A stretch of DNA of 64,000 bases, from the NCBI RefSeq assembly GCF_003576375.1, contig NZ_QWGE01000001.1:868001-932000 (forward strand), written 5' to 3'. Source of the stretch: Pontibacter oryzae. Its GTDB lineage: Bacteria; Bacteroidota; Bacteroidia; Cytophagales; Hymenobacteraceae. The notes beneath the pieces are model-generated. The model saw only the letters and a program-made list of their open reading frames with translations, ran no database searches and had not been told where the DNA came from. The translations under genes were made by a program, and so were the position numbers. The stretch's first letter is position 1, and each line of letters opens with the position of its first letter. This document shows positions 8,416 through 22,789 of this stretch, in pieces.

Positions 8416-10119
8416 CTAATTTTTCTTCTTTGGGGCCGGTTTCTTACTGTTGGCCGGCGCTTTTTTAGCCGGGGCGGTTTCTTTCTTGACCGGGGATTTA
8501 GGCTTGGCCACCACTTGCTCTTTGGTTGGCCTTAAATCTGCCAGCCAGGCAAAGCCCTCCAGTTGGCGGGCATCCTCTCCTAACTCGTGCGGCGGAATAA
8601 AACTGGCATCCGGCTGCACCAGAAACGAGATTGTCTTGAGTTTATTTTGCCCGAACTTGAGCACCATATCACTGCAGATGGCCTTGTTCATGCCCGTCAG
8701 GGTTGTATCTCCCTCTAAGGCAAAGTATAAGCTCTCGCCGTTGCCGTTAACATTTACCCGAACAATATCGCCCTCGGTAAAAAAAGCGGTCATGTCGCGG
8801 CCTTTCACTTGGTTGTAATTCTTAAGCGAGTCCTCGGAGGCAATAAAGGCGTTGGAGTACATGTACATGCGGTCGATGGTCTTGTTGCGCAGCTGTATAT
8901 GTATAGTATCAGAAACCAGCTGGCTCTTATCGTTCCAGAGTACTGGCTTCACGTTCATGTGCATAATTGAGTCGGTGCGGTTATAGCTCAGCGAGTCAGC
9001 CTTCCCCTGCAGGTCAGATTTGAAGATTTTAACGTTCGGGTAAGCAAAAATCATACTTGCCGTTCTAGCGCCCTTTGCCTCCTGCGAGTATAAAGTATCG
9101 GCGGAAAGATACAAGGTATCGGCATCCATGATGGTTTCCATCACGGGGCGGCCATGCACCTTCGCCTCTCCCCTGTCGCGCCAGTAGCGGCCCACTTGCC
9201 CCCGTATCGTCACGTCATCCTTCAACGATTTTAGGGCCACGTTTACCTCAGCCAGGCCGTAGCCCCGGTTTTGGTCATAGTATAGCTTGTCGCCGCTCAG
9301 GCGATATTCCTTGGTAAGTATGTAAGCGTTGCGGCCAAACCGCGATATTTTGGTGATGGTGTTATACGTTCCCTCTTCGGCGTACAGGTCGCCCTGCTGG
9401 CCCTGGATAAACGTTGGCCCCTGAAAGTATACTACCTTAGTGAGCGTGTTATACCGCATGTTCTGGGCCACAATGTTATAATCTGCAGTGGTTACATTAA
9501 CATCCTGCTGAAAATCAAACATCTTGGTCTTTGTATTATAAGAGCCACGTTTGCTCACCAAGCGGTTCTCCGGATCCACGATGGTGCCGCCCTCGGTATA
9601 TGTAGCGGTGCGGGTATTCAGGTTGTAATCCAAGCTTGGCGTGGTCAGGGTCATGCGGGGGTCGCGCATCACTACGTTGCCGGTGATTCTAGCCGAGCGG
9701 GTGTCGCCGTTGTAAGTGGCCTGGTTGCCGGTGATGTTCACGGTATCGGCCTGGTTTATGCGCACGTTCCCAAAGGCCTCCAGCACATTCTGCTCTTTAT
9801 ACTGATACACGGAGTCGGCGTAGAGCGTGCCGTCTTTCTGCTTAAAGATCACGTTGCCGATCAGCTTGTCGATGCGCTGGCCGTTAAACGTACCGCCGAT
9901 CAGGCTGTCTGCCTGCTGCAGATCAACAGGTACCCTTTCGCCCTGTCCCTGCTGCTGCTGCTGCTTCTGCTGTGCAGGTGGTTGCTGGGTTTGCGGCCGG
10001 GCTTGCTGTTGAGGGGCAGGCCGCAGTGTGGCGGGTTGCCTCTGTGTGCCGCTTTGCCCAAAAACGGTGGCCGCCATCAGGGTAAAGACAAGAGAAAAGA
10101 GTATTTTTGCGTTCTTCAT
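8416..10119 (-). CDS. OstA-like (LptA/LptD-type) LPS transport protein
   Basis: This 567-residue secreted protein has a signal peptide (about residues 1-22), a glutamine/proline-rich linker (about 23-65), and then a long run of short beta-strand repeats such as VYQYKEQNVLEAFGNVRINQ and GNQATYNGDTRSARITGNV. These repeats follow the OstA/LptA jellyroll pattern, whose members shuttle lipopolysaccharide across the periplasm. The C-terminus is a Lys/Pro/Ala-rich tail. The Bacteroidota family is usually called OstA-like protein; it is larger than E. coli LptA and lacks an obvious LptD barrel. It heads the minus-strand cluster with bamD downstream, matching a role in outer membrane building. Confidence 0.88.
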   Translation of the reverse strand: MKNAKILFSLVFTLMAATVFGQSGTQRQPATLRPAPQQQARPQTQQPPAQQKQQQQQGQGERVPVDLQQADSLIGGTFNGQRIDKLIGNVIFKQKDGTLYADSVYQYKEQNVLEAFGNVRINQADTVNITGNQATYNGDTRSARITGNVVMRDPRMTLTTPSLDYNLNTRTATYTEGGTIVDPENRLVSKRGSYNTKTKMFDFQQDVNVTTADYNIVAQNMRYNTLTKVVYFQGPTFIQGQQGDLYAEEGTYNTITKISRFGRNAYILTKEYRLSGDKLYYDQNRGYGLAEVNVALKSLKDDVTIRGQVGRYWRDRGEAKVHGRPVMETIMDADTLYLSADTLYSQEAKGARTASMIFAYPNVKIFKSDLQGKADSLSYNRTDSIMHMNVKPVLWNDKSQLVSDTIHIQLRNKTIDRMYMYSNAFIASEDSLKNYNQVKGRDMTAFFTEGDIVRVNVNGNGESLYFALEGDTTLTGMNKAICSDMVLKFGQNKLKTISFLVQPDASFIPPHELGEDARQLEGFAWLADLRPTKEQVVAKPKSPVKKETAPAKKAPANSKKPAPKKKN

Positions 10120-10126
10120 TTATCAA

Positions 10127-10220
10127 TAAGATGTTAGATGCTAGATACTAGACAATAGACTTTTCCTGATTTAAGTATGATTATCAGAAAGCCTAAAATC
10201 TAACGTCTAATATCTAAGTA
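10127..10220. repeat. Intergenic imperfect inverted repeats (TTAGATG/TCTAACG family)
   Basis: The spacer between the divergent OstA-like gene and tilS holds imperfect copies of a TTAGATGCTAGATACTAGAC-like unit at about 10131-10161 and the reverse-complement type (AATCTAACGTCTAATATCTA) at about 10197-10216. The pair could fold as a weak hairpin. An AAGTAT motif copy lies between them. Confidence 0.45.
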
Positions 10221-10264
10221 CTTTATAACATCAAAATTAGAAAAAAATTACCAGCCGCTGCTTT

Positions 10265-11596
10265 ATGCTTCAGAAAGTTTCAAGTTTCATACAAACGCGC
10301 CAACTGTGTGCGCCCGACAGTAAAATATTAGTAGCCGTTAGCGGCGGCATCGATTCGGTGGTGCTGTGCGAGGTACTGCACCAGCTAAAGTATGCATTTG
10401 CCGTGGCGCACTGCAATTTCGGACTGCGCGCCGAGGATGCCGAGGCCGACCAGCTGTTCGTCAAAAAGCTGGCCAAGAAGTATGACGTTCCTTTTTTTAC
10501 GGAGAACTTTAACACCAGCGCCTTTGCCGAGCAGGAAAAGCTATCAACACAAATGGCGGCCCGCACGCTGCGCTACCAGTGGTTCGAGCAGGTGCGCCAG
10601 CAGGAAGGCTACGATTATATTGCCACCGCGCACCACAGCAACGACCTTACCGAGACCATGCTGCTGCACCTGACCAAAGGCACTGGCATTGCTGGCTTGC
10701 ATGGCATACCGGCCAAGAATGGCTACATCATCCGCCCGCTGCTAACGGTTACCAAAGACGACATTTACGAGCTTGTAACGGAGCGCAAACTGATCTGGCG
10801 CGAGGACAGCTCTAACATCACCACCAAATACCAGCGCAACAAGATCCGCCACGAGGTTATTCCGGTTCTAAAAGAGATCAACCCAAGCCTAGAGGGAACC
10901 ATGCAGCACACCGCCGAGCGTGTGAGCCATGCCGAAAGTATAGTGGCTGCCTACATCGAGAACCTGCGCGAGCAAAGTATAAAAGAGGCAGAAAACGCCA
11001 CTTATATTTCGTTGGTGCCGCTGCAAAATGCCACGGGCCTGCCGGTGGTGCTGCACGAGCTGCTGCGCCCGTACAATTTCAGCTACAGCGTGGTGCTAGA
11101 GCTGGTTGATTCCCTGGAAGGCCTATCGGGAAAGCAGTTCGACTCGCCGACCCATACTTTGGCAAAAGACCGCGACCAACTAGTGATTACGCCCCGCAAC
11201 CTGAGCAGCTTCGGAAGTATACTTATACAGGAGGGAGATACCACGGTAGAGGCCGGAAACCACACGTTCAGCATAAAGTATGTTGATGCCGACAAGTATA
11301 AACTCAACACCAAACCGCATGTGGCTGCCCTCGATGCCGAACAGCTGCGCTTTCCGTTGAAGCTGCGCGCCTGGCAGGAAGGCGACTGGTTTGTACCCCT
11401 AGGCATGAACGGCAAGAAAAAAATCAGCGATTTCCTGATCGATAAGAAAGTACCGGCCAACTTAAAAGGCCAAACGCTGGTATTAGTATCAGACCAGTCT
11501 ATTGCCTGGGTCGTGGGCCAGCGCCTCGATAACCGCTTTAAAGTAACAGACAAAACTGAGCGGGTAGTGGAAATATCTATAGGGCGTAGCTCGTAG
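10265..11596 (+). CDS. tilS: tRNA(Ile)-lysidine synthase TilS
   Basis: TilS uses ATP and lysine to convert C34 of tRNA-Ile(CAU) to lysidine, so that it reads AUA instead of AUG. The 443-residue protein has the PP-loop motif SGGIDS at residues 26-31, then AHCNFGLRAEDAEADQ, the ATAHHSNDLTET segment and EDSSNITTKYQRNKIRH, all characteristic of TilS. The C-terminal tRNA-binding region ends with DKKVPANLKGQTLVLVSD. This enzyme is of special note here because AUA codons recur in this genome as part of the over-represented AGTATA and ATACTT words. The gene is transcribed divergently from the OstA-like gene. Confidence 0.95.
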   Translation: MLQKVSSFIQTRQLCAPDSKILVAVSGGIDSVVLCEVLHQLKYAFAVAHCNFGLRAEDAEADQLFVKKLAKKYDVPFFTENFNTSAFAEQEKLSTQMAARTLRYQWFEQVRQQEGYDYIATAHHSNDLTETMLLHLTKGTGIAGLHGIPAKNGYIIRPLLTVTKDDIYELVTERKLIWREDSSNITTKYQRNKIRHEVIPVLKEINPSLEGTMQHTAERVSHAESIVAAYIENLREQSIKEAENATYISLVPLQNATGLPVVLHELLRPYNFSYSVVLELVDSLEGLSGKQFDSPTHTLAKDRDQLVITPRNLSSFGSILIQEGDTTVEAGNHTFSIKYVDADKYKLNTKPHVAALDAEQLRFPLKLRAWQEGDWFVPLGMNGKKKISDFLIDKKVPANLKGQTLVLVSDQSIAWVVGQRLDNRFKVTDKTERVVEISIGRSS

Positions 11597-11599
11597 TAC

Positions 11600-11678
11600 G
11601 TATCAAGTATCACGACGCCTACAGTGCGTATTTTACGATTAAAAAAAGTCATGATACCTGTGTCGTGATACTTGATAC
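11600..11678. repeat. 17-bp inverted repeat downstream of tilS
   Basis: A perfect 17-bp arm (GTATCAAGTATCACGAC at 11600-11616) is repeated inverted at 11662-11678, with a 45-nt loop. Each arm contains one AAGTAT/ATACTT hexamer. It begins 4 nt after the tilS stop, so it could act as a 3' RNA structure, though no T-run follows at once. Confidence 0.7.
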
Positions 11679-11760
11679 AAAAACGAAGTTTTTATAATAG
11701 AATTTTCTAATTTTACAGGAGTTAACCGAATCTCAAACTAAAATAAAACCATATCCGACA

Positions 11761-12699
11761 ATGAAAGTAACCGTAGTTGGAGCAGGTAACGTTGGGGCTA
11801 CGTGCGCCGATGTGCTGGCTTACCGCGAAATCGCGAACGAAGTAGTACTAGTGGATATTAAAGAAGGATTTGCTGAAGGCAAGGCTCTGGATATCTGGCA
11901 GAAAGCGCCAATTAACCTATACGATACACGCACTGTAGGTGTAACAAACGATTATAGCAAAACCGCTGGCTCTGATGTAGTGGTTATCACATCTGGTTTG
12001 CCGCGCAAGCCAGGCATGACCCGCGATGACCTGATCTCTACAAACGCTGGCATCGTGCAGTCTGTAACCGAAAACATCGTGAAGCACTCTCCGGATGCTA
12101 TCATTATTGTGGTATCTAACCCGCTGGATGTAATGACGTACGCAGCGCACATCACCTCTAAGCTGCCACGCACCCGCGTAATGGGTATGGCTGGCATCCT
12201 GGATACGGCGCGTTACCGTGCATTTCTGGCTGAGGAGCTGAACGTATCTCCAAAAGACATCCAGGCAGTACTGATGGGTGGCCACGGCGACACCATGGTT
12301 CCGCTTCCGCGCTACACTACTGTGGGCGGTATTCCGGTAACCGAGCTGATCTCAGAAGATAAACTGAACGCAATTGTTGACCGCACCAAGAACGGTGGTG
12401 GCGAATTGGTAAAACTGATGGGTACTTCTGCCTGGTATGCACCAGGTTCTGCAGCTGCCCAAATGGTGGAGGCTATCGTGCGCGACCAGCGCCGTGTGTT
12501 CCCGGTTTGCGTGAAGCTTGAAGGCGAGTATGGCATTGATGGCGTATACCTTGGCGTGCCAGTTATACTTGGTAAAAACGGTATCGAGAAGATTATCGAG
12601 CTGCAGCTGAACGAAGACGAGAAGCAACTGCTTGAAACTTCTCGCGGCCACGTGAAAGAGGTAATGGATGCGCTGGACAATATGTCTGCCAAAGCGTAA
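11761..12699 (+). CDS. mdh: Malate dehydrogenase
   Basis: Mdh oxidises malate to oxaloacetate with NAD in the TCA cycle. The 312-residue protein is of the lactate-dehydrogenase-like type. It has the NAD-binding GAGNVG at residues 7-12, the substrate arginines in PRKPGMTRDDL, the conserved IIVVSNPLDVMTY, and the catalytic histidine in GGHGDTMVPLPRYTTVGG. The codon use is regular and the gene carries only one copy of the AAGTAT hexamer, in keeping with a highly expressed housekeeping gene. It is followed by a strong bidirectional terminator. Confidence 0.97.
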   Translation: MKVTVVGAGNVGATCADVLAYREIANEVVLVDIKEGFAEGKALDIWQKAPINLYDTRTVGVTNDYSKTAGSDVVVITSGLPRKPGMTRDDLISTNAGIVQSVTENIVKHSPDAIIIVVSNPLDVMTYAAHITSKLPRTRVMGMAGILDTARYRAFLAEELNVSPKDIQAVLMGGHGDTMVPLPRYTTVGGIPVTELISEDKLNAIVDRTKNGGGELVKLMGTSAWYAPGSAAAQMVEAIVRDQRRVFPVCVKLEGEYGIDGVYLGVPVILGKNGIEKIIELQLNEDEKQLLETSRGHVKEVMDALDNMSAKA

Positions 12700-12713
12700 G
12701 CTATCCTATACTT

Positions 12714-12763
12714 AAAAAGCAGCGGGTGCACTTTTAACATGAAGTGCACCCGCTGCTTTTTTT
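12714..12763. terminator. Bidirectional terminator between mdh and the HD-domain gene
   Basis: A stem of about 20 bp (AAAAAGCAGCGGGTGCACTT and its complement) with an 8-nt loop has an A-run on its left and a T-run on its right. It separates convergent genes and should stop transcription from both sides. Confidence 0.9.
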
Positions 12764-12770
12764 ATACTTG

Positions 12771-13955
12771 TCAATGGGCAATCCAGAGCTGCGCGATGGC
12801 AAACGATAGCACCGAGGCAATAAATCCAAACATAAACACACTGTAAGCCACGCGCAGCTTTCTGTACTTGCGTTCCAGAATTACACCCAGGTTATAGTTA
12901 TCCCGGATCAGGCTGCCGTAAAGGAAATCGGAATCATCCATTACCCGCTTCAGAGCCCATTCATATTCCTCCACGGGCATGCGGTGGTAATTGCCAAAAA
13001 ACAGCAGGTTGGCTCTTTTCTTCTCGATGTCCTCTTTGTTAAATCGCCCCTGCGTGAGTTTGGGCAGGGTAACAAGTATGGTGAACACAACCGTGGTGAG
13101 TGATGTGGCCGTCAGGATAACGGCAGGCACGATCAGGCGCGGCTCCTCCTCCAGTTTCCGGAAAACCACCGAAACCAGCAACGATACGATAATGGAACTG
13201 ATGGTAAGCAGAATCTGTGCTTTGCTGTCGGCCATATCGCTGAGGCGGATGTGGTTGCTAGACATAACCCGGAACATGGTTTCCACGCCACGCTCGGTTT
13301 TCTTGGGCTTCTTCTCCTTCTTCTCTTTTTTATCTTTGGCCGCTGGCTCCTGGGCAAAGGTATGCTCTGCTTTCAGGAGTTGTTGCAGATTATCCGCTTT
13401 GCCCTCCTGAAGAGCCTGGCGGCAGAAGTCGGTGTGGTAGCAATGCCGCTCCAGAAACTGTATACTTGCCCGGTTCCATACTTCCTCCTGCAGCTCCCGC
13501 TCTGTACGGAGCTCGGTTTCCTGGCGTACCTGCTCGTTCTTATTTGCAAAATCCAACGTGCCTAGATGGAAAAGGTCGGCATCGCAGAGGATTTGCGCCG
13601 GCAGCGAAGCCGGCCGCTGTGGCATTTTGGTGGCAAGTATACATTCCTTCACTTTGGCCCGAAGCGCTTCAGAAGCCTGCTTCTCTGACAGGAACGCATC
13701 GGCCAGTTCAGCGCTCTTTTCCTCATGATCCTCCTGGTGGGTAAACAGATAGCCTACATCATGAAACCACGCTGCAATTTTAACGGCCAGGTACTCCAGT
13801 TCATTCAAAGCATAGTGCCCTGAGATACGCTCTGCAGCAGTTACCACTTCCTCGGTATGCTCCACGCTGTGGTAAGGCAACACGCTGGTTCCATGTGCCT
13901 GAAAGAGCCCACGCACGTGCGCCGCTGTATCAAGGATTAACTTTATTCCATCCAT
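12771..13955 (-). CDS. HD-domain protein fused to a Pycsar-type (DUF5706) membrane effector domain
   Basis: The 394-residue protein has two parts. Residues 1-200 form an HD phosphohydrolase-type domain with the metal-ligand set PYHSVEHT (H29, H33), FHDVG (H65, D66) and CDADLFHLG (D125, D127). A lysine-rich linker (residues 205-222) leads to a membrane part with helices at about 246-266, 273-297 and 368-391. The entry to the first helix reads MFRVMSSNHIRLSDMADSKA, which matches the DUF5706/PycTM domain used by Pycsar antiphage effectors. The HD part probably hydrolyses a nucleotide; the substrate cannot be read. It lies 20 nt downstream of the BamA-like gene. No nucleotide cyclase is near, so a defence role is unproven. 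Confidence 0.82.
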   Translation of the reverse strand: MDGIKLILDTAAHVRGLFQAHGTSVLPYHSVEHTEEVVTAAERISGHYALNELEYLAVKIAAWFHDVGYLFTHQEDHEEKSAELADAFLSEKQASEALRAKVKECILATKMPQRPASLPAQILCDADLFHLGTLDFANKNEQVRQETELRTERELQEEVWNRASIQFLERHCYHTDFCRQALQEGKADNLQQLLKAEHTFAQEPAAKDKKEKKEKKPKKTERGVETMFRVMSSNHIRLSDMADSKAQILLTISSIIVSLLVSVVFRKLEEEPRLIVPAVILTATSLTTVVFTILVTLPKLTQGRFNKEDIEKKRANLLFFGNYHRMPVEEYEWALKRVMDDSDFLYGSLIRDNYNLGVILERKYRKLRVAYSVFMFGFIASVLSFAIAQLWIAH

Positions 13956-13975
13956 CTCAAAAATCTGTGATAACT

Positions 13976-16564
13976 CTAGAACCGGAAGCCTACCGAAAAG
14001 TATGGCAACACACCATCCTCCGAAAAACCAACCACACCATGCAGCAGGATCAGCTCGGCCGGGGTTACATAAAAACCGCCTCCAAAGCCATCGTGCCAGC
14101 CACTAGATTTCACGCCGTTGCTGGACCACACGCGCCCTACATCGTTAAATCCGATTAAGCCCACCGACCCCGGAAACAGGAAAGAAGTAAAGTCAAACAG
14201 CTTCATGCGCAGCTCCAGGTTGTGGTAAAGCATCTGCTCACCGGCAAAACGGAAGTTGCGGTAGCCCCGCAGGTTGTTGGTGCCGCCAAGGTACAGTAGC
14301 TGGAAAAAAGCAGGATCGCCGAAGGTGCTTCCGCCGCCTACGCGGTTTGCCACCACCAGCTTGTCCGACAGGCTAAAGTATACTCCAAGTTCGGACTGCA
14401 GGCGGCCATACTTGTTCTCGCTGCCGTTAAACTGTGTGATGCCCCTGAGGCTGGTGTTCCAGTAAATGCCTTTGGATGGCGATAATGTGTTATTACGGGT
14501 ATCAAGGGTAAAGCCGCCTACTAAACCTCCGTAGTAGCTGGTTGTAAACAGGTTTTCTTCAGGGTTTTGCTCGCTGAACACATTAATAAAACGCCCTTCG
14601 TTATCTTCCGGCTCCATGCTGAAAAACTGGCTGGTAACGCCGGCATACACCTTAAATTTAGGAGCAAGCTGGCGTTGCAGTGTAGCCTCTGCATTCACAA
14701 AATCATAGCGGGTGCGGTAAAAGCGAATAGGTCTATCTGTTTCCTTGATAAACTCAGTGCCATTGCCTACCCCAAAAAAGTTACTGGTATTGTTCGGCGC
14801 ATTTGCATCCAGTTGCAGTGCCAGATCATACTTACCAATCAGTTTCGGGAAATCGCCCTGATAACTGCCAAAATAAGCGTTGGTTGCCAGCGCATGCCCC
14901 AGCATGAAGCGGTGCTTTGCGGCATAAGGCTCTCTGCGGAAACCGTGCTTGATATACTGAAAACCTGCTCCCAGCAGTACGCCGTCGTCCAGGTTATAGC
15001 CGATTGTGGCCAATGGCATCAGCACGTTATACTTAAAACTACGGCCATCATAGTTGTTCACAAGGGTGTCATTGGCAAGTTTAAGTTTGGCTAGGCTGCC
15101 TTTTGGCACCTGGTTATCATCATCTTTGCGGTCGTAGATCAGTAACCTGCGCTTGTTCGGGAAATTTTTAGCTACCCGGAACGTATCAGCTTTGCCGCCG
15201 CCAATCAAGCGCACTCTTATATTTGATTTGGTCTCGCCTTCTACAGTAAAAAGGTCCTCGTCGCCACGGCCATACAAGCGCAACTCTTGGGTAACATCCG
15301 GGGAAAACGTGCGCTGCATCAGTAGCTTATCGCGGTTGCCCTCCTTTTTAATTTTGTATACTTTCAGATCGATGTTGCCGCCGGGCAGGTAGTTCAGGTT
15401 AAACTCCTCGTGCTTGTCGGAGCCGGCAATGTCCACTTCGCGCGCCAGGAAACGATAGTACTTCATTGCCTGGTTTTCCAGGTCATCGCGCCGCGCAATC
15501 ATTTTGCGGGTGATCTCCTCTCCTGAAATCGCATACACAGGCTTGGGCATACGTTTTACGGCCTGGGCAATAAGCGCATCGTTCAGTTGCTGCTGCACAT
15601 AGCGTATTTCCTTGCGCCAGTCGTCCTCGCTCAGGTAAGTCAGGAAGTAGCGGTCGAAATAGCGGGCATTAAAGTTGTAGCCCTCCACATCCCGTATCTC
15701 GGCATCAAATCCTTGGAACTTGGGCATGATCCACTTGCGGGAGCCGATCTTTGGGATAACGCCTTGGTTCGTGAAGAATACCTGGTCGCGGTCGCGGGGG
15801 ATGGGGTCGTAGATTTTGTTGCCCTCTTCATCCTCGCGTTGGCGCCAGCGCCACTGGTCCTCGTGCCGGTCCCAGTCGCCTATAACAATATCCAGGAGGC
15901 GGGCACGAAGCACGGCACGCTGGTCAACGCGGTTGTCATTGTCCTCTTCCAGTTCATCTAGCACCTTCTCGGTATTATCTGTATCCAAGCCGGGGTTGAT
16001 AGGCTCCCGTTCTTCAAACAAGTATACCGCGTTGGCATACTCCTTTCTATACTTACCCAACGCCGGATCATCAGGAAGATAAACTACGCTCGGGTTGGCA
16101 TGCGGTACTTGCAGAGCCTCGGCCAAAGGCGGCACTACTAAAGCGGCAAACGGATGAGAAGCCGATATCTGGTCTTGCACGATGACTTTTGCCACCGTAG
16201 GGCGCAGGTTTTCCGGCAATGCTTTCTCAGGATCTTTCTGGATGGTTCGCAGCACCCACTCTTTGCCGGTAGCATCCTCGAGCCGAAGCGATTTGGTTTG
16301 CTGCCCGCCGCCACGCTCTGTAATGCGCAGGCCGCCCTGCTCCTGGCTTAAGTGGAACACGCGCATTTTAACAGGTGTAGCCCAAATTTTTCGGTAGTTC
16401 TCTCCAAACCAGAAGCGGTGGGCTTTCTTTACAGAATCATACTCTGGGGCAATTGCCACCGTTATACTATCCTGTTGCGGTATGTTTTGTGCCTGGGCCA
16501 AGGTGAAATAACTGCCCATTAGCAGTAGGCCCAACGTTAGGCGTAGTTTTATAGTTGGTGTCAT
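13976..16564 (-). CDS. BamA/TamA-type outer membrane barrel with kinase-like N-terminal region
   Basis: This 862-residue exported protein has a signal peptide (about residues 1-26) and a C-terminal Omp85-type barrel: the lid-loop motif GGTNNLRGYRNF, then GLIGFNDVGRVW, and a terminal aromatic residue (SVGFRF). I see no POTRA repeats. Instead residues 90-265 resemble the HipA/PI4K/FAM20C kinase-like fold: a hairpin with TGKEWVLRTIQK (candidate nucleotide lysine K110), a catalytic-loop-like GDWDRHEDQW (D232, R233, H234), and then IPRDRDQVF (D258, D260) where a metal-binding Asp would lie. This could be a surface or periplasmic kinase carried on a barrel. Upstream is a GAF-domain gene (38-nt gap) and downstream the HD-Pycsar gene (20-nt gap). 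Confidence 0.8.
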   Translation of the reverse strand: MTPTIKLRLTLGLLLMGSYFTLAQAQNIPQQDSITVAIAPEYDSVKKAHRFWFGENYRKIWATPVKMRVFHLSQEQGGLRITERGGGQQTKSLRLEDATGKEWVLRTIQKDPEKALPENLRPTVAKVIVQDQISASHPFAALVVPPLAEALQVPHANPSVVYLPDDPALGKYRKEYANAVYLFEEREPINPGLDTDNTEKVLDELEEDNDNRVDQRAVLRARLLDIVIGDWDRHEDQWRWRQREDEEGNKIYDPIPRDRDQVFFTNQGVIPKIGSRKWIMPKFQGFDAEIRDVEGYNFNARYFDRYFLTYLSEDDWRKEIRYVQQQLNDALIAQAVKRMPKPVYAISGEEITRKMIARRDDLENQAMKYYRFLAREVDIAGSDKHEEFNLNYLPGGNIDLKVYKIKKEGNRDKLLMQRTFSPDVTQELRLYGRGDEDLFTVEGETKSNIRVRLIGGGKADTFRVAKNFPNKRRLLIYDRKDDDNQVPKGSLAKLKLANDTLVNNYDGRSFKYNVLMPLATIGYNLDDGVLLGAGFQYIKHGFRREPYAAKHRFMLGHALATNAYFGSYQGDFPKLIGKYDLALQLDANAPNNTSNFFGVGNGTEFIKETDRPIRFYRTRYDFVNAEATLQRQLAPKFKVYAGVTSQFFSMEPEDNEGRFINVFSEQNPEENLFTTSYYGGLVGGFTLDTRNNTLSPSKGIYWNTSLRGITQFNGSENKYGRLQSELGVYFSLSDKLVVANRVGGGSTFGDPAFFQLLYLGGTNNLRGYRNFRFAGEQMLYHNLELRMKLFDFTSFLFPGSVGLIGFNDVGRVWSSNGVKSSGWHDGFGGGFYVTPAELILLHGVVGFSEDGVLPYFSVGFRF

Positions 16565-16602
16565 ATATTCTGTGTGATTGCCAAGAGTATACTTGGCTAA
16601 AG

Positions 16603-18936
16603 CTAAAGGGTTATGCGCAGGCGCACGGCTTTTAAGCCTGAAATACCTTGCAGCGGCTCCAGCTCCAGAAATTCCGGTGCCGGTTGCAGCTTCCCTTCCT
16701 CTATTAAGCGCTCATACGCAGCCGTATACATTTTAATTTCCTGCTCGTTGGCATATACGATGCAAATGGTTCCGGGCTGAGTCAGGCGCTCTTCGCTGTG
16801 CAGCAAATGCACCTTATCTATCCGTTTTTTCATCACCTCGTACCGAATGCTGTAGGCACCGTCTACATCAAAAATCCGCTCATCCCTTCTAAAGCTCAGG
16901 TTGATTTTGTGCAAGTGTACAAGTATAAGCTGCGTAGTCTGGAGAGGATACGGCAAGTATGGCTGCAGGTTATATACGGCTTTTGCCATATTAAGGATGG
17001 ATTGTAACTGCCATTGGATGATCTGGCGAATTCCCTGGCTTTCTTCGTATTTTATTTCCGGGGAAATTGCACTGCCTACATACAGGTTATACTCGAGCCC
17101 ATCCGTCTGGAAACGATCTATGTAATAAGGTATAAGGCCTTTCAGGCTACGCTTCTCTTGCACCAATACGCGCTTCAGGGTTTTGTTTACCTCCAATATA
17201 CTTTGGTCATACTCATTTCTTGAGGCGTAAAACATACTAGTGGCATCTTCTAGTTGCGCTTTAAGGTGGTTTGCCGCCTCTGGCTGTACGTTATGGTTGA
17301 GAAGCTGCGCGATGGTGTGCTGCAGATGCTCACTTACCTGCGTTTCCACTTCCAGGTTCATCTCTTTATCAAGCTGGGCCAATAAGGCTGCCGTGGTTTT
17401 GCTTTCAGCTTCCATGCTTTCCGGTAAGAGCGCATGCAGGTGTTGCAACTGCTTTTTAAAGTCGCTGGCGGTGGCCTGCAGGCGTAGCACGCTTGAGTTC
17501 TTAACGTCAACGGCAGCGTAAAAGGGCGTTAGCTCATCGAACCGCACTGCAGGAGTAGGCGCCAAGTCTTTGTTGCCCTGGGTCACTTGCCGCAGCGCCT
17601 GCCAGGCCGCATCCCTGAATTTCCAAAGCACGGATGGGTGGATGGCAGTATAGCGCTCCAGGATAAAGCTGTTCATAACCAACCGAAACTTATCCTGCAG
17701 GTAGAGCAGAAACTCACGGTACATGGGCAAAGCTCTTTCCACTCGGTGCCGCATGGTCATGTCCACAAAATCCGGTTCGGTACTACCCAGCTCAATTACG
17801 CCTATCAACTCGCTTTGGTGGTACACCGGAAAGAAAGCCATACTTCTAAGCCCATACTTGTGCAGGTAGCGCGCCACGTCATCATCCTCGTTGCCCGTGA
17901 TGATATCGTACGAGATGTTGTTGTGCAGCAACTGGTGATTGGCACAGAAAGAAAACAAAATTCGGAAGATATGCTCCAACTCCTCAGGGGTGTGGTGCTC
18001 ACGGAGCTGGCTAAACACGATGCTGGTTGTAGAGAAAGTGTCGTGGTAGACATATTCCTTATTTACCTTCACCAAGGGCATAAACCCTAAACGCGCTTTA
18101 TCTGTGCCTAATAACGACGAAGTAGCTGCCATGACTTGTGCGAGTATATCTTGCTCAGGCAAAGCGTGCAGGTTCACGATAATATTGTTCAGGCGCAACA
18201 AAGACTCTTCCTCTGTTTCGTCTTTTAGCTTAAAAATCAGGAAACCCTCTATTACAATGTTACTGAGTGGCAGCGGAACCGCTATCAAATTCATACTTTT
18301 GATATTCCCGCGGGCATACTCCAGCCATTCTTCCCTCATTTCAGGTTTATCGCCTTCCCAACGGATTGTAATGAACTGATGGTTGCTAACAAGCCGGTAA
18401 TAGCGCGCACAAACCTGGCAATGGTCTTCCAGTGTCATATACTCTACCGGCTCCGCGCCAAATGTTTCATGTGGAATCTCGTAGCAGTGGTGCAGTACTT
18501 GCCGGTAAAGGTTTTGAAGCGCTTTTTCCTCTTGCTCGGCTTCGTCGGCAGGCTGTAGCTTCAGGGCCTGCGTTTGTTCTTCCAGCACCAGTTCGGCAAA
18601 TGCCTTGGAGTAGGAGAAAAAGCGCATCGGCGATGGTGTGCCAATCGCAAAGAGCAGGTTTTGGTCTTCCTCAAAAGGATATACATGGTTTAGCTGCAGC
18701 AACTCAATCAGCTCTTGGTGCCCGGCAAGTATACCCCAGTCAGTAATTGGTTTTATTAGGCGCTCATCGCTTTTAATCAAGCCAATGATGCGTTGCAGGT
18801 ACGTCCGGTAAATTTGGTTCTGGCACTTTTGCAGCTGTTTTTCCAAAAACTGCAGGTATTGTGCAAAGCTCAGCTCCCAGGCCAGTGCCGGAACCGGCTC
18901 CTGAAGGCGTGGCTCATTTATACCTAGTATTTCCAT
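16603..18936 (-). CDS. GAF domain-containing cytoplasmic protein
   Basis: This 777-residue protein has no signal peptide or membrane segment. The central part (about residues 330-430) reads like a GAF sensor fold: LHKYGLRSMAFFPVYHQSELIGVIELGSTE is its typical core. The N-terminal third is helical with a possible second divergent sensor domain (NLIAVPLPLSNIVIEGFLIF), and the C-terminal region is a long helical stretch plus a small alpha/beta end. No kinase, GGDEF or DNA-binding domain is visible, so the output is unknown. Bacteroidota genomes carry many such GAF proteins. It is the first gene of a three-gene row with the BamA-like and HD-Pycsar genes. Confidence 0.75.
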   Translation of the reverse strand: MEILGINEPRLQEPVPALAWELSFAQYLQFLEKQLQKCQNQIYRTYLQRIIGLIKSDERLIKPITDWGILAGHQELIELLQLNHVYPFEEDQNLLFAIGTPSPMRFFSYSKAFAELVLEEQTQALKLQPADEAEQEEKALQNLYRQVLHHCYEIPHETFGAEPVEYMTLEDHCQVCARYYRLVSNHQFITIRWEGDKPEMREEWLEYARGNIKSMNLIAVPLPLSNIVIEGFLIFKLKDETEEESLLRLNNIIVNLHALPEQDILAQVMAATSSLLGTDKARLGFMPLVKVNKEYVYHDTFSTTSIVFSQLREHHTPEELEHIFRILFSFCANHQLLHNNISYDIITGNEDDDVARYLHKYGLRSMAFFPVYHQSELIGVIELGSTEPDFVDMTMRHRVERALPMYREFLLYLQDKFRLVMNSFILERYTAIHPSVLWKFRDAAWQALRQVTQGNKDLAPTPAVRFDELTPFYAAVDVKNSSVLRLQATASDFKKQLQHLHALLPESMEAESKTTAALLAQLDKEMNLEVETQVSEHLQHTIAQLLNHNVQPEAANHLKAQLEDATSMFYASRNEYDQSILEVNKTLKRVLVQEKRSLKGLIPYYIDRFQTDGLEYNLYVGSAISPEIKYEESQGIRQIIQWQLQSILNMAKAVYNLQPYLPYPLQTTQLILVHLHKINLSFRRDERIFDVDGAYSIRYEVMKKRIDKVHLLHSEERLTQPGTICIVYANEQEIKMYTAAYERLIEEGKLQPAPEFLELEPLQGISGLKAVRLRITL

Positions 18937-19062
18937 GGCGTTCTTTCGAAAATTGATAGCCTTTAAGAAAACAGCATTAAAGTATGTATGGGCGGCTACA
19001 CTTTTGCCATACGGATCTGTTTATGTAGAGTAAACAGCGCGGCAAGGCTTTGGTTAGGGCCT

Positions 19063-19110
19063 TAAACCAAGAACGGCCCCCTTTGTTCGAAGGGTGCCGT
19101 TCTCGGTTTA
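19063..19110 (-). terminator. Hairpin at the end of the first rhomboid gene
   Basis: An imperfect stem pairs AAACCAAGAACGGC with GCCGTTCTCGGTTT around a CCCCCTTTGTTCGAAGGG loop. It overlaps the stop codon of the rhomboid gene ending at 19108. On the minus strand the T-run is short, so termination strength is uncertain. Confidence 0.5.
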
Positions 19111-20019
19111 ATCTTTTTGGCTGGCCTGGAAGAGCTTCTGCTTCTCTTCTTTGGACAGGCTTTCGTAGCCGGAGCTCGATATTTTATCTAAAATGCGGTC
19201 TATCTCGTGCTGACTTGGGCTTAGCGGTCCGCTGTTGGGCTTAGTGCCGTTTGGCTTGGCAGTGCTGCCTGTGCTAAAGCGCCGGTGCGTTATTTTCAGT
19301 TTGGGCTTTCGTTTGAAGAGGTTGCCGAAGAAATCCGTTACGGCAAGCACCGGCCGGCCCATGTCGTTGCCGCGTTGCAGTTGCTTTATAAAGAGCCAGC
19401 CTATAAAAGCGCCCCCAATGTGCGCAATGTTGCCGCCCGCGTTGCTGCCGATAGCCCCCGAAATGGAGAGCAGCACCAGAAACGCCGCAATATACTTAAT
19501 CTTCACCGGCCCGATCAGGATGAGGTTGAACGAGTAGTTCGGAAGCAAGGTGGCAGCCGCCATCACAATCGCCAGCACGCTTGCCGAGGCCCCGATCATG
19601 GTGCCGATCACCATGCGGTCCGCGAAGTATGGAATAAAGTTGTAGCTGAGCAAGTATAAAACCGCCCCGGCAATACCACCCAGCACATACAGGCTCAGCA
19701 GCTTTCTATCACCGACGTACTCCCGGATCAGTTGGCCAAACCAGTACAGGTTAAGCATATTAAAGATGATGTGCAGGAAACCTTCGTGCGTGAAGAAGTA
19801 GGTGATCAGCGTCCAGGGGTGCGTGGCAAAGTATAGCGGGGAAGAGCTTATGGCCAGGTTACTGAAGATTAGCGCATACAGCCATTCGCCGCTGGTGATG
19901 AACAGGATCGTGCGCAGCACAATCAGCACCACAAACACAATCACGTTGATGAGTATGAGCTGCTTAAGTATATTATTGGGCTGCCGGAAAGCAGTTTTTA
20001 TATCGTCGATTATACTCAT
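19108..20019 (-). CDS. Rhomboid family intramembrane serine protease (first of two)
   Basis: Rhomboids cut membrane proteins inside the bilayer with a Ser-His pair. This 303-residue protein has six hydrophobic helices, the oxyanion-type motif HIIFNM (N87), the catalytic serine in GASAS (S145; most rhomboids have GASG here) and the catalytic histidine in NIAHIGGAFIG (H200). A cytoplasmic C-terminal tail of about 90 residues is polar (STGSTAKPNGTKPNSGP...). The substrate is not known. It follows the second rhomboid gene by only 6 nt, so both are probably co-transcribed with mutL further upstream on the same strand. Confidence 0.9.
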   Translation of the reverse strand: MSIIDDIKTAFRQPNNILKQLILINVIVFVVLIVLRTILFITSGEWLYALIFSNLAISSSPLYFATHPWTLITYFFTHEGFLHIIFNMLNLYWFGQLIREYVGDRKLLSLYVLGGIAGAVLYLLSYNFIPYFADRMVIGTMIGASASVLAIVMAAATLLPNYSFNLILIGPVKIKYIAAFLVLLSISGAIGSNAGGNIAHIGGAFIGWLFIKQLQRGNDMGRPVLAVTDFFGNLFKRKPKLKITHRRFSTGSTAKPNGTKPNSGPLSPSQHEIDRILDKISSSGYESLSKEEKQKLFQASQKD

Positions 20020-20025
20020 TATGCC

Positions 20026-20805
20026 TTAGTAGTTTCTGTAGTCGTTTTGTTGCCACATTCTTACCATTATATACGCGAAGAGCATTCCCCCGAGGTGTGC
20101 AAAGTGTGCTACGTTATCTCCGGGTACGCGGTTAAACCCGGAGTACAACTCAAAGAGCCCGTAAAACAAGACAAAGTACTTTGCTTTAATCGGGACCGGC
20201 AAAAACAGCAGCATCAGCTCGAGGTTAGGGAATAGCAGGCCGAAGGCCATCAGGATGCCAAAAACGGCACCCGAGGCGCCAAGCATCGGACTGTTAAATG
20301 CCCGCCCAAACACAAAGCGCACGGCTTCTTTGCTTTCTTCTATATAAGTAGTGTTATCCGGGTTGCGCTGGTAAGCCACCGCAAACTCTGTGTTATACTG
20401 CCCCTTAAAGTGGTCCTCCATATAATTGTAGAAGCCCATTGGGGTTGGGTTTTCTATGTAGATGCTGGTTTCCTCCTCAAGCCCATTCAGCTCATAAGCC
20501 CTTACGCCAGAATATAGCAGGCTTGCCCCCAAACCGGTTATCAGGTAAAAAGCCAGCAAGCGCTGCGGCCCCCAGAAGCGCTCCAGCATGGGCCCGAAGA
20601 TGAAAAGGCTGAACATGTTGCTGAACAGGTGCCCCCACCCGCCATGCATAAACATGTGCGTAAACAGCTGCACCGGCCTGAACATGTCGGAGCCAAAGTA
20701 ATGCAGGGCAAACGTCTCGATGCTTACAAGCCCGCTAAGCTGCAATAAGTAAACGACCACATTGATGATCAGGAGGTTCCTGACCATAGGGGTGATATTG
20801 AACAT
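20026..20805 (-). CDS. Rhomboid family intramembrane serine protease (second of two)
   Basis: This 259-residue rhomboid has the motif HLFSNM (N63), the catalytic serine in MLGASGAVFG (S178) and the histidine in NVAHFAHLGGMLF (H237). Between its early and later helices is a polar insert (about residues 103-172) containing charged loops, absent from its neighbour, which probably faces the periplasm and may shape substrate choice. The gene is 6 nt upstream of the other rhomboid gene on the same strand and about 125 nt downstream of mutL. The two proteins share only the family core, so this is an old tandem pair rather than a recent copy. Confidence 0.9.
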   Translation of the reverse strand: MFNITPMVRNLLIINVVVYLLQLSGLVSIETFALHYFGSDMFRPVQLFTHMFMHGGWGHLFSNMFSLFIFGPMLERFWGPQRLLAFYLITGLGASLLYSGVRAYELNGLEEETSIYIENPTPMGFYNYMEDHFKGQYNTEFAVAYQRNPDNTTYIEESKEAVRFVFGRAFNSPMLGASGAVFGILMAFGLLFPNLELMLLFLPVPIKAKYFVLFYGLFELYSGFNRVPGDNVAHFAHLGGMLFAYIMVRMWQQNDYRNY

Positions 20806-20929
20806 GCGCGTTTCAGTTTTTGAAGTATAAGCCAGGCTTTATCAAACCCATGCTTTATACTTTAGCTTATATTGACTCTAAAAGTATAAGTCCTGCATAC
20901 TTTCGAACCAACAATTTAACAATTAACCG

Positions 20930-22789
20930 TTATCCTTTCAGGAAAAGCTCGTGCAGCTGGTTCAGCTCCATAATCACGAGCGTTTTCTGGCCACCGGGCG
21001 TGTAGTTAGGCACCTGGCAGGCAAACAGCTTGTCTACGAGCGAATTCATTTCAAGGTCGCTCATGCGTGCCAGCGAGCGCGAGGCCAGCCTTTTGGCCAT
21101 GGCCCGGGCCAGGTTTTCCCGTTTATCAAGCTTTAACGTAGCCGAATTGTTTTTGTATTGCTCTATTAATTCCTCCAGCAGTTCTTTTTCATCGGCGGCA
21201 TGCACATCGGCGGGTATTCCATTAAGTATGATGGTGTTTCCGCCAAAATCCTCAAACTGAAAGCCCATATCTTTAAACTCTGCCGCCAGCTCTTTTATAA
21301 GTATGGCATCGGTGGCAGAAAGCTCTACGGTCTGTGGGAAGAGCAGCGCCTGCGACGCGCCTGTCTTCTTCTGAAGCGAGACGTTATACTTCTCATACAA
21401 GATTCGCTCCTGCGCTGCCTGCTGGTCAATGATCATCACCCCGGACTTTACCTGCACCAGCAAATACTTCTGATGTATCTGAATGGCCTTCTTAGTGGAG
21501 GCAGGCACAGTATCGGAGGCGGCAAAGGCTTCGTCCAGCAAACCCATACCTGAAAAGGCTGAACTTGTGTGCTCTTCTTGCACCGGCTCTTTCATGGGCT
21601 CGTACAACTGCTCCCACCCTCTGGAAGTTGCCCGTTTGGTAGTGGTGGCCGGCGGCGTGAACCCCGGAAACGACGAGCTTTCGCTGCTGCTTCTGGGCTT
21701 TGGCTCCGACTCAAACTCGCTGTTGAAGCCGCCTTGCAAACGTATGGGCTGTAGGGGCGCGTAGTTCACATCCTGCTCAAAATCCAAAGACGGGGCTATG
21801 TTATAGGCGCCTAAGGCACGTTTTACGGCTGCATGCACAATGGCGTACACCGTTTTCTCGTCCTCAAACTTTATCTCTGTTTTAGTGGGGTGCACGTTAA
21901 TATCGATCTTCTCCGGGTCGATGTCGATGAACAGAACATAGAACGGGTGGTTCTCCTTGGCTACCAGGCCCTCAAAGGCCGTCATGACCGCATGGTTCAG
22001 GTAGCCGCTTTTTACGAAGCGGTTGTTTACGAAGAAGAATTGCTCACCGCGTGCTTTCTTGGCGTGCTCTGGTTTGCCCACATAGCCTTTCACTACCAGA
22101 AAGCCTGTGTCTTCCTCGCAGTAGGCCATCTGGTTTTTATAGGTGCTCCCGAAAATGCTGACGATGCGCTGGCTCAGCTTGGTGGCCGGCAGGTTAAACA
22201 CCTCCATCTCGTTGTGGTGCAGCGTAAAGGTTACCTCTGGATAGGCAAGCGCCACCCGCTGAAACTCCTCCAGGATATGGCGCATCTCCACAGCGTTGGA
22301 TTTCAGGAAATTTCGCCGGGCGGGCACGTTATAAAATAGGTTTTTCACGGAGATAGACGTGCCTTCTGGGGCCACTACTGGCTCCTGCCCTACTACTTCC
22401 GAGCCCTCTATCACCAGCTTGGTGCCTGTATCGGAGTGCTGCGTTCGGGTTTTAAGCTCTACTTGCGCCACCGCGCCAATAGATGCCATGGCCTCGCCCC
22501 TAAAACCCATAGTCCGGATCTGGAACAGATCTTCGGTGGAGCGGATTTTAGATGTGGCGTGGCGCTCAAAGCACATGCGCGCATCCGTTTCCGACATGCC
22601 TATGCCGTTATCCACTACTTGTACCAGTTGCTTGCCTGCCTCCTTCACGATCAGCTGTATGCTGGAGGCCTGCGCATCAATGGCGTTCTCCAGCAGCTCT
22701 TTAACTACAGATGCAGGGCGTTGCACCACTTCTCCAGCCGCAATCTGGTTAGCCAGGAAATCAGGCAGTAAATGTATGATGTCGGGCAT
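20930..22789 (-). CDS. mutL: DNA mismatch repair protein MutL
   Basis: MutL couples mismatch recognition by MutS to strand removal. The 619-residue protein has a normal GHKL ATPase half: ELLENAIDAQ, VDNGIGMSE, TSKIRSTEDL and GFRGEAMASIG. The C-terminal half is present but its endonuclease motifs look lost: the DQHA-like site reads DQQAAQER (D455), the AC-x-x-A-V region reads AMAKRLASRS, and the C-P-H-G position reads YTPGGQ. These residues bind the metal in nicking MutL proteins, so this one may lack that activity. The middle linker is Ser/Pro/Glu rich. The gene starts the minus-strand row with the two rhomboids. Confidence 0.95.
   Translation of the reverse strand: MPDIIHLLPDFLANQIAAGEVVQRPASVVKELLENAIDAQASSIQLIVKEAGKQLVQVVDNGIGMSETDARMCFERHATSKIRSTEDLFQIRTMGFRGEAMASIGAVAQVELKTRTQHSDTGTKLVIEGSEVVGQEPVVAPEGTSISVKNLFYNVPARRNFLKSNAVEMRHILEEFQRVALAYPEVTFTLHHNEMEVFNLPATKLSQRIVSIFGSTYKNQMAYCEEDTGFLVVKGYVGKPEHAKKARGEQFFFVNNRFVKSGYLNHAVMTAFEGLVAKENHPFYVLFIDIDPEKIDINVHPTKTEIKFEDEKTVYAIVHAAVKRALGAYNIAPSLDFEQDVNYAPLQPIRLQGGFNSEFESEPKPRSSSESSSFPGFTPPATTTKRATSRGWEQLYEPMKEPVQEEHTSSAFSGMGLLDEAFAASDTVPASTKKAIQIHQKYLLVQVKSGVMIIDQQAAQERILYEKYNVSLQKKTGASQALLFPQTVELSATDAILIKELAAEFKDMGFQFEDFGGNTIILNGIPADVHAADEKELLEELIEQYKNNSATLKLDKRENLARAMAKRLASRSLARMSDLEMNSLVDKLFACQVPNYTPGGQKTLVIMELNQLHELFLKG

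Follow-up and report, generated by a model that had tools for sequence, protein, structure and literature searches.

The window analysed here, a whole 64,000-nucleotide stretch of the Pontibacter oryzae genome, carries on its minus strand (13976-16564) a single open reading frame (ORF) with an ATG start, encoding an 862-residue protein in which a predicted kinase-fold domain, hereafter K, precedes an Omp85-type barrel. We named this protein K-Omp85 and assessed by computation its architecture, predicted fold, conservation and gene neighbourhood; all window genes given coordinates with a strand below lie on the minus strand. Residues 1-26 (16487-16564, minus) read by eye as a Sec-type signal peptide, with a basic start, a hydrophobic core and an AQA end, through which the protein is presumably exported, and a rough regular expression found a hydrophobic N-terminus in 145 of 187 K-barrel proteins. 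K spans about residues 53-374 (15443-16408, minus) in an AlphaFold2 (AF2) model and is followed by an all-beta linker domain at residues 376-497 (15074-15439, minus), delimited from the secondary structure of the model (model residues 350-471), and by the barrel at about residues 515-862 (13979-15022, minus).

An earlier sequence-only reading had recognized the barrel from an LRGYRNF lid motif and a terminal phenylalanine, and profile searches bore this out. The Pfam model PF01103 matched residues 609-821 (51.8 bits, cut-off 24) and PF19143 matched with 28.9 bits (cut-off 23.1); NCBIfam NF047779 scored 109.1 bits, under its cut-off of 200. LRGYRNF occupies residues 765-771 and F862 is the last residue, with R766 and G767 of the (V/L)RG(F/Y) lid pattern unchanged in all 43 aligned rows and F862 kept at 90% or more. 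That reading also held that a kinase-like region stands where POTRA repeats would be expected. No Pfam or NCBIfam model matched residues 1-500 at E ≤ 5, no Pfam POTRA model matched anywhere in K-Omp85 at that threshold, and the model shows only beta structure between K and the barrel, so that K appears to occupy the place of the POTRA repeats. The N-terminal domains of Omp85 proteins face the periplasm, and by analogy K would lie on the periplasmic side of the outer membrane.

The AF2 model of residues 27-520 had a pLDDT of 93.0 and a pTM of 0.92, and its best 50 VIA-align matches were kinase-fold entries, namely type II phosphatidylinositol 4-kinase (PI4KII), CotH, CtkA, HipA/HipT, PI3K/VPS34, mTOR and ATM, with matches titled ‘MDT protein’ that we take to be HipA. 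The kinase matches spanned model residues 1-349, that is, protein residues 27-375. The kinase-like fold proposed earlier for residues 90-265 therefore stands, with a domain that reaches about residue 374, and of the likenesses then named HipA and PI4K were recovered alongside CotH and CtkA; FAM20C was absent from the best 50 matches, an absence that speaks for those 50 only. The model has the two lobes of the protein-kinase-like fold, and both a catalytic Asp loop and an Asp at the DFG position are present; K is accordingly modelled as a member of the PI4KII/CotH/CtkA/HipA group of that fold. The putative catalytic loop GDWDRHEDQW (residues 229-238; 15851-15880, minus) places D232 in the column of the HipA catalytic Asp and Q237 opposite the HipA Asn, and in DRD (residues 258-260; 15785-15793, minus), part of IPRDRDQVF (residues 255-263), D258 takes the DFG-Asp position and D260 stands as in the CotH DxD. 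LRTIQK (residues 105-110; 16235-16252, minus), which closes TGKEWVLRTIQK (residues 99-110), is assigned to the end of strand beta-3. The model strand covers residues 102-107, with R106 inside it and K110 just past it; both are conserved, and R106 probably takes the position of the ATP-binding lysine or one close to it, with K110 as the next candidate. All motifs quoted in the sequence-only reading are present at the residues where it had put them.

Profile comparisons pointed to the same group. The K profile scored 33.7 against a CotH profile (29 rows, the empty L127 dropped) and 31.6 against a HipA_C profile (28 rows, L167 dropped for its stops and the empty L150 likewise), in each case exceeding all 100 column-shuffled profiles (15.0 ± 2.0, maximum 20.3, for CotH; 14.5 ± 2.2, maximum 23.4, for HipA_C), with reversed profiles at 13.6 and 14.2 and eight unrelated profiles from the same loci at 14.0 to 20.6. 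The catalytic loop aligned in register, with DRHEDQW of K over DDHTKNF of HipA and IPRDRDQVF over IPyDyDntF of CotH. When an alignment of 66 members (A2) was compared as a profile with all PDB sequences, CtkA came first (E 0.047), also in register; single-sequence PDB searches with the N-terminal half of K-Omp85 returned just barrels and chance matches. Neither PF08757 (CotH) nor PF07804 (HipA) matched K-Omp85 (E ≤ 5) or any of 66 scanned members (E ≤ 0.1), a CotH profile built from 30 loci matched no member of the K family, and the A2 members share no Pfam family, none occurring in more than 2 of 66 at E ≤ 0.1.

The K family has no name and is very large. Its members found to date come from Bacteroidota and take three forms: K-barrel, metallophosphatase-K-barrel and K alone. 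A search with K-Omp85 residues 40-515 scored 7999 candidates, of which 5981 proteins reached E ≤ 0.001, and a plasmid search found K in 5 of 72,556 records, all from Bacteroidota. The best 120 relatives, which include proteins of Pontibacter, Mucilaginibacter, Chitinophaga, Rufibacter and Cytophaga, are near 860 or near 1220 residues long, and those near 1220 often carry PF00149. ORFs of all loci, not de-duplicated, comprised 81 K-barrel, 64 metallophosphatase-K-barrel and 22 K-alone proteins and one incomplete phosphatase-K piece. The P. oryzae genome itself holds five copies: K-Omp85, a 1272-residue metallophosphatase-K-barrel protein (L002) and three barrel-less K proteins (L003, L005 and L004). 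On a tree of 86 non-redundant K domains, architecture changed 11 times, compared with 38.6 times when labels were shuffled. K-Omp85 fell in a K-barrel clade (support 99/86) nested within a mostly metallophosphatase-K-barrel clade (100/98), and it may therefore have lost a phosphatase domain. A rough regular expression detected a lipobox in 94 of 142 K-alone proteins. Among K-alone proteins P0121-P0240, the residues from the lipobox Cys onward formed two groups, one acidic (CADDD-like) and one basic (CARKN-like). An acidic stretch after the Cys resembles the surface-export signal of Bacteroidota lipoproteins, and CADDD-like proteins might be exposed at the cell surface.

Database names of the relatives, such as ‘outer membrane protein assembly factor’ and ‘surface antigen’, together with an Omp85 barrel bearing the RG lid motif, would suit a protein in which K replaces POTRA as a substrate-recognition or chaperone-docking domain, the barrel serves protein assembly or secretion, and the kinase fold is inherited and unused. 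We consider this quite unlikely, as K also occurs in the barrel-less proteins counted above, mostly with a lipobox, its catalytic residues are conserved, and its neighbours are PPK1, HD-PycTM, cyclase and SixA genes, not assembly genes.

Conservation was assessed in 86 members with less than 62% mutual identity, after 3 of 409 matches had been dropped as shorter than 200 residues. D225 was present in all 86, R233 in 85, D230, E184 and W238 in 84 each, K110 in 83, D131 in 82, D258 and R259 in 80, D232 and D260 in 79 and H234 in 75, and R106 was present in 79 of 85. The DRH and DRD residues on which the sequence-only reading had staked its kinase comparison are thus widely kept. The full set of nine positions (R, K, E, D, R, H, Q/N, D, D), counted without de-duplication and with Q or N accepted at 237, was found in 77 of 78 metallophosphatase-K-barrel, 175 of 188 K-barrel and 126 of 142 K-alone proteins. 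The match to kinases exceeds chance expectation because the named residues are conserved, shuffled profiles are outscored and the predicted fold matches kinases. Some divergent members lack DRD, and some copies may therefore be dead; three such K-barrel proteins of family f17 (L181, L182 and L184) have RHY or RQY in its place and, judged by these motifs, are likely non-catalytic. On contig C4 of the P. oryzae genome, a K-alone lipoprotein (L003, 1474-3099) has Ser at the D232 position (GDWSRHEDNW) and its tandem paralogue has Asp, possibly an inactive copy beside an active one.

In the window, K-Omp85 is followed after 20 bp by a gene for a 394-residue HD-PycTM protein (12771-13955, minus; PF18967 114 bits, PF01966 31.3 bits) and preceded, 38 bp upstream, by a gene for a 777-residue protein, GAF777 (16603-18936, minus), which matches the GAF model PF01590 weakly (22.3 bits, cut-off 22.4). 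Two adjacent rhomboid genes lie upstream of GAF777 (19108-20805), and the same genes directly adjoin the K-barrel gene in four Pontibacter loci. Across 120 loci, made up of the 80 best named matches and 40 chosen for divergence, so that counts are descriptive, relatives of HD-PycTM occurred in 39 and of GAF777 in 26, along with SdiA-regulated-type propellers (32), PPK1 (19), cyclases (12) and SixA (8). Two Mucilaginibacter loci (L044 and L047) carry PPK1, propeller, PAP2, GAF777 and K-barrel genes consecutively on one strand. In the P. oryzae genome, a contiguous run comprises a complete PPK1 gene, a DUF6268 gene, the metallophosphatase-K-barrel gene and an HD-PycTM gene. This genome has two PycTM genes, and both stand beside its two barrel-bearing K genes. 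In five loci (L094, L100, L192, L193 and L210) a CotH kinase gene and a K gene lie no more than about 2 kb apart, and two of the 40 divergent stretches (G070 and G019) were picked because a CotH gene had been seen near.

We then counted these associations in 148 genomes, where at most three K candidates were scored per genome and the counts are lower bounds. K was found in at least 53 genomes, and at least 37 of 50 strong PycTM genes had a K gene no further than 16 kb away (0.55 expected; at least 32 within 5 kb), the distance limit and the score cut that separates these 50 from all 64 having been set after the data were seen. Strong PycTM genes occurred in at least 46 of the 53 K genomes and in 2 genomes without K (Fisher P = 3 × 10−28, uncorrected for kinship). 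With all 64 PycTM genes included, at least 37 were near K, at least 47 of the 53 K genomes held one, and 9 genomes held one without K. PPK1 lay within 16 kb of K in at least 18 of 49 genomes (0.69 expected).

The PycTM partner raises the question of whether these genes form a Pycsar-like system against phages, with K-Omp85 as an accessory. The HD-PycTM neighbour matches the PADLOC models for PycTM and for CBASS-type 2TM effectors (E 2.2 × 10−17), PycTM and K genes are coupled across the 148 genomes, and one locus (L217 of G089, 11605-18039) encodes, after a metallophosphatase-K-barrel protein, a class III cyclase with a weak PycC match (E 2 × 10−6) and a short PycTM protein (E 2 × 10−21). K-Omp85 itself, however, matches no PADLOC model, and no cyclase is found among the window ORFs at 8416-22789, whereas a Pycsar system has a pyrimidine cyclase beside PycTM. 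K, present in at least 53 of the 148 genomes and accompanied by the same neighbour in many families, resembles a conserved module more than a patchy defence gene, and PPK1 is common beside it. A defence role is therefore very unlikely in our judgement, and loci such as L217 could be mistaken for Pycsar defence systems.

The frequent phosphate- and nucleotide-related neighbours, together with the kinase-like fold, suggest that K-Omp85 may be a kinase in a compartment thought to be ATP-free. With slightly better than even confidence, we read it as an active atypical kinase or phosphotransferase, anchored in the outer membrane and facing the periplasm, in a phosphate- or nucleotide-linked module with HD-PycTM and often PPK1. 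We favour activity because members retain the catalytic set despite deep divergence and in all three architectures, barrel-less lipoproteins included. From this we infer the catalysis, substrate, phosphate donor and coupling of K as follows. The Omp85 barrel would hold K at the outer membrane on the periplasmic side, where K would phosphorylate an envelope substrate (a lipid headgroup, glycan or protein) and belong to a signalling module together with the membrane HD-PycTM protein and, in many genomes, PPK1; metallophosphatase-K-barrel relatives would combine kinase and phosphatase in a single chain. In view of the PPK1 link, polyphosphate is a candidate donor and no more. A narrower version, in which K uses not cytoplasmic ATP but polyphosphate from the PPK1 encoded beside it in many genomes, or phosphate relayed from it, the phosphatase forms write and erase a phosphate mark on the envelope and HD-PycTM, as inner-membrane partner, reads it out, strikes us as improbable.

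Several observations weigh against an active kinase. The beta-3 lysine position is apparently occupied by arginine (R106), and the metal-binding Asn is mostly Gln (Q237 in 78 of 86 members, Asn in 6). D232 is replaced by Ser or Asn in 7 of 86 members, one of them a lipoprotein of the same genome, D258 or D260 is replaced in several members, and we know of no ATP in the periplasm. These departures, with the members that lack DRD, would also fit a non-catalytic, pseudokinase-like domain that senses a nucleotide, polyphosphate or a phosphorylated ligand and thereby gates or regulates the barrel. We regard such a sensor as possible, with appreciably less confidence than an active enzyme, since most members keep the nine-position set, which binding alone would not require in full. 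The profile evidence for the fold has its own counterweights: hhalign probabilities of K against CotH and HipA were just 16-22% with 86 non-redundant rows, and with a narrower alignment (66 rows, Neff 3.5) they fell to 5-6% for CotH (P = 0.006-0.008, in register) and 0.7% for HipA (P = 0.08, out of register). CotH and HipA profiles scored 24.1-25.1 against each other, with unrelated controls between other pairs reaching 22.6, and the next PDB match of the A2 profile after CtkA was HDAC6 (E 0.72), likewise on the DWD.H stretch, which indicates that a short motif alone can give much of such a score. As for the neighbourhood, 12 of the 18 PPK1 genomes belong to one family, the other six coming from five families, the thresholds of the counts were chosen after the distances had been seen, and four Pontibacter loci (L035-L037 and L041) have a K-barrel gene without HD-PycTM or GAF777 neighbours, such that the pairing is not strict.

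If the active-kinase reading is true, kinase-fold barrels of the outer membrane put phosphotransfer chemistry where no ATP source is accepted. The family is large and annotated as assembly factors or ‘surface antigens’, and Pfam has no name for its main domain. Its coupling to HD-PycTM and PPK1 would also offer PycTM proteins a function besides phage defence and polyphosphate a possible envelope role in Bacteroidota, in a module concrete enough to be tested. A literature search, with subscription journals and preprints mostly outside it, found no description of a kinase domain in an Omp85 protein; the one paper that contains Omp85, ‘kinase domain’ and ‘barrel’ together is a survey of polymorphic toxins, and no D15/Omp85 entry was found in the accessible portion of a study of phosphate starvation in F. 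johnsoniae (PMC8115612).

Among known kinases, the type II phosphatidylinositol 4-kinases (4wtv, 4yc4 and 4hnd) share 12-14% identity with K and are eukaryotic membrane-bound lipid kinases, whereas K matches no Pfam PI3/PI4-kinase model. CotH kinases (5jd9 and 5jda; PF08757) lack the DRHxxQ spelling of the catalytic loop of K. CtkA and HipA/HipT are cytoplasmic or secreted soluble enzymes, and unlike K-Omp85 they have no barrel (3akk, 4pu5 and 8ezs; PF07804). Among Omp85 proteins, the ‘Metallo’ class of one survey (PMC4104836), PF00149 plus barrel, has the same architecture as the paralogue L002 and the listed relatives; the survey labels PF00149 a metalloprotease, whereas in Pfam it is a calcineurin-like phosphoesterase. 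The available text of that survey, in which the word ‘kinase’ occurs 0 times, does not describe a K domain between phosphoesterase and barrel for its ‘Metallo’ or ‘noNterm’ classes, and its noNterm class does not require POTRA. At least one POTRA is stated for Omp85 proteins in the accessible part of work on PlpD (PMC11116518), and none was found in K-Omp85. PlpD, a patatin-Omp85 protein, is like K-Omp85 in placing an enzyme domain N-terminal to an Omp85 barrel, the difference being that its enzyme, as described there, is a patatin lipase and the domain in K-Omp85 has a predicted kinase fold.
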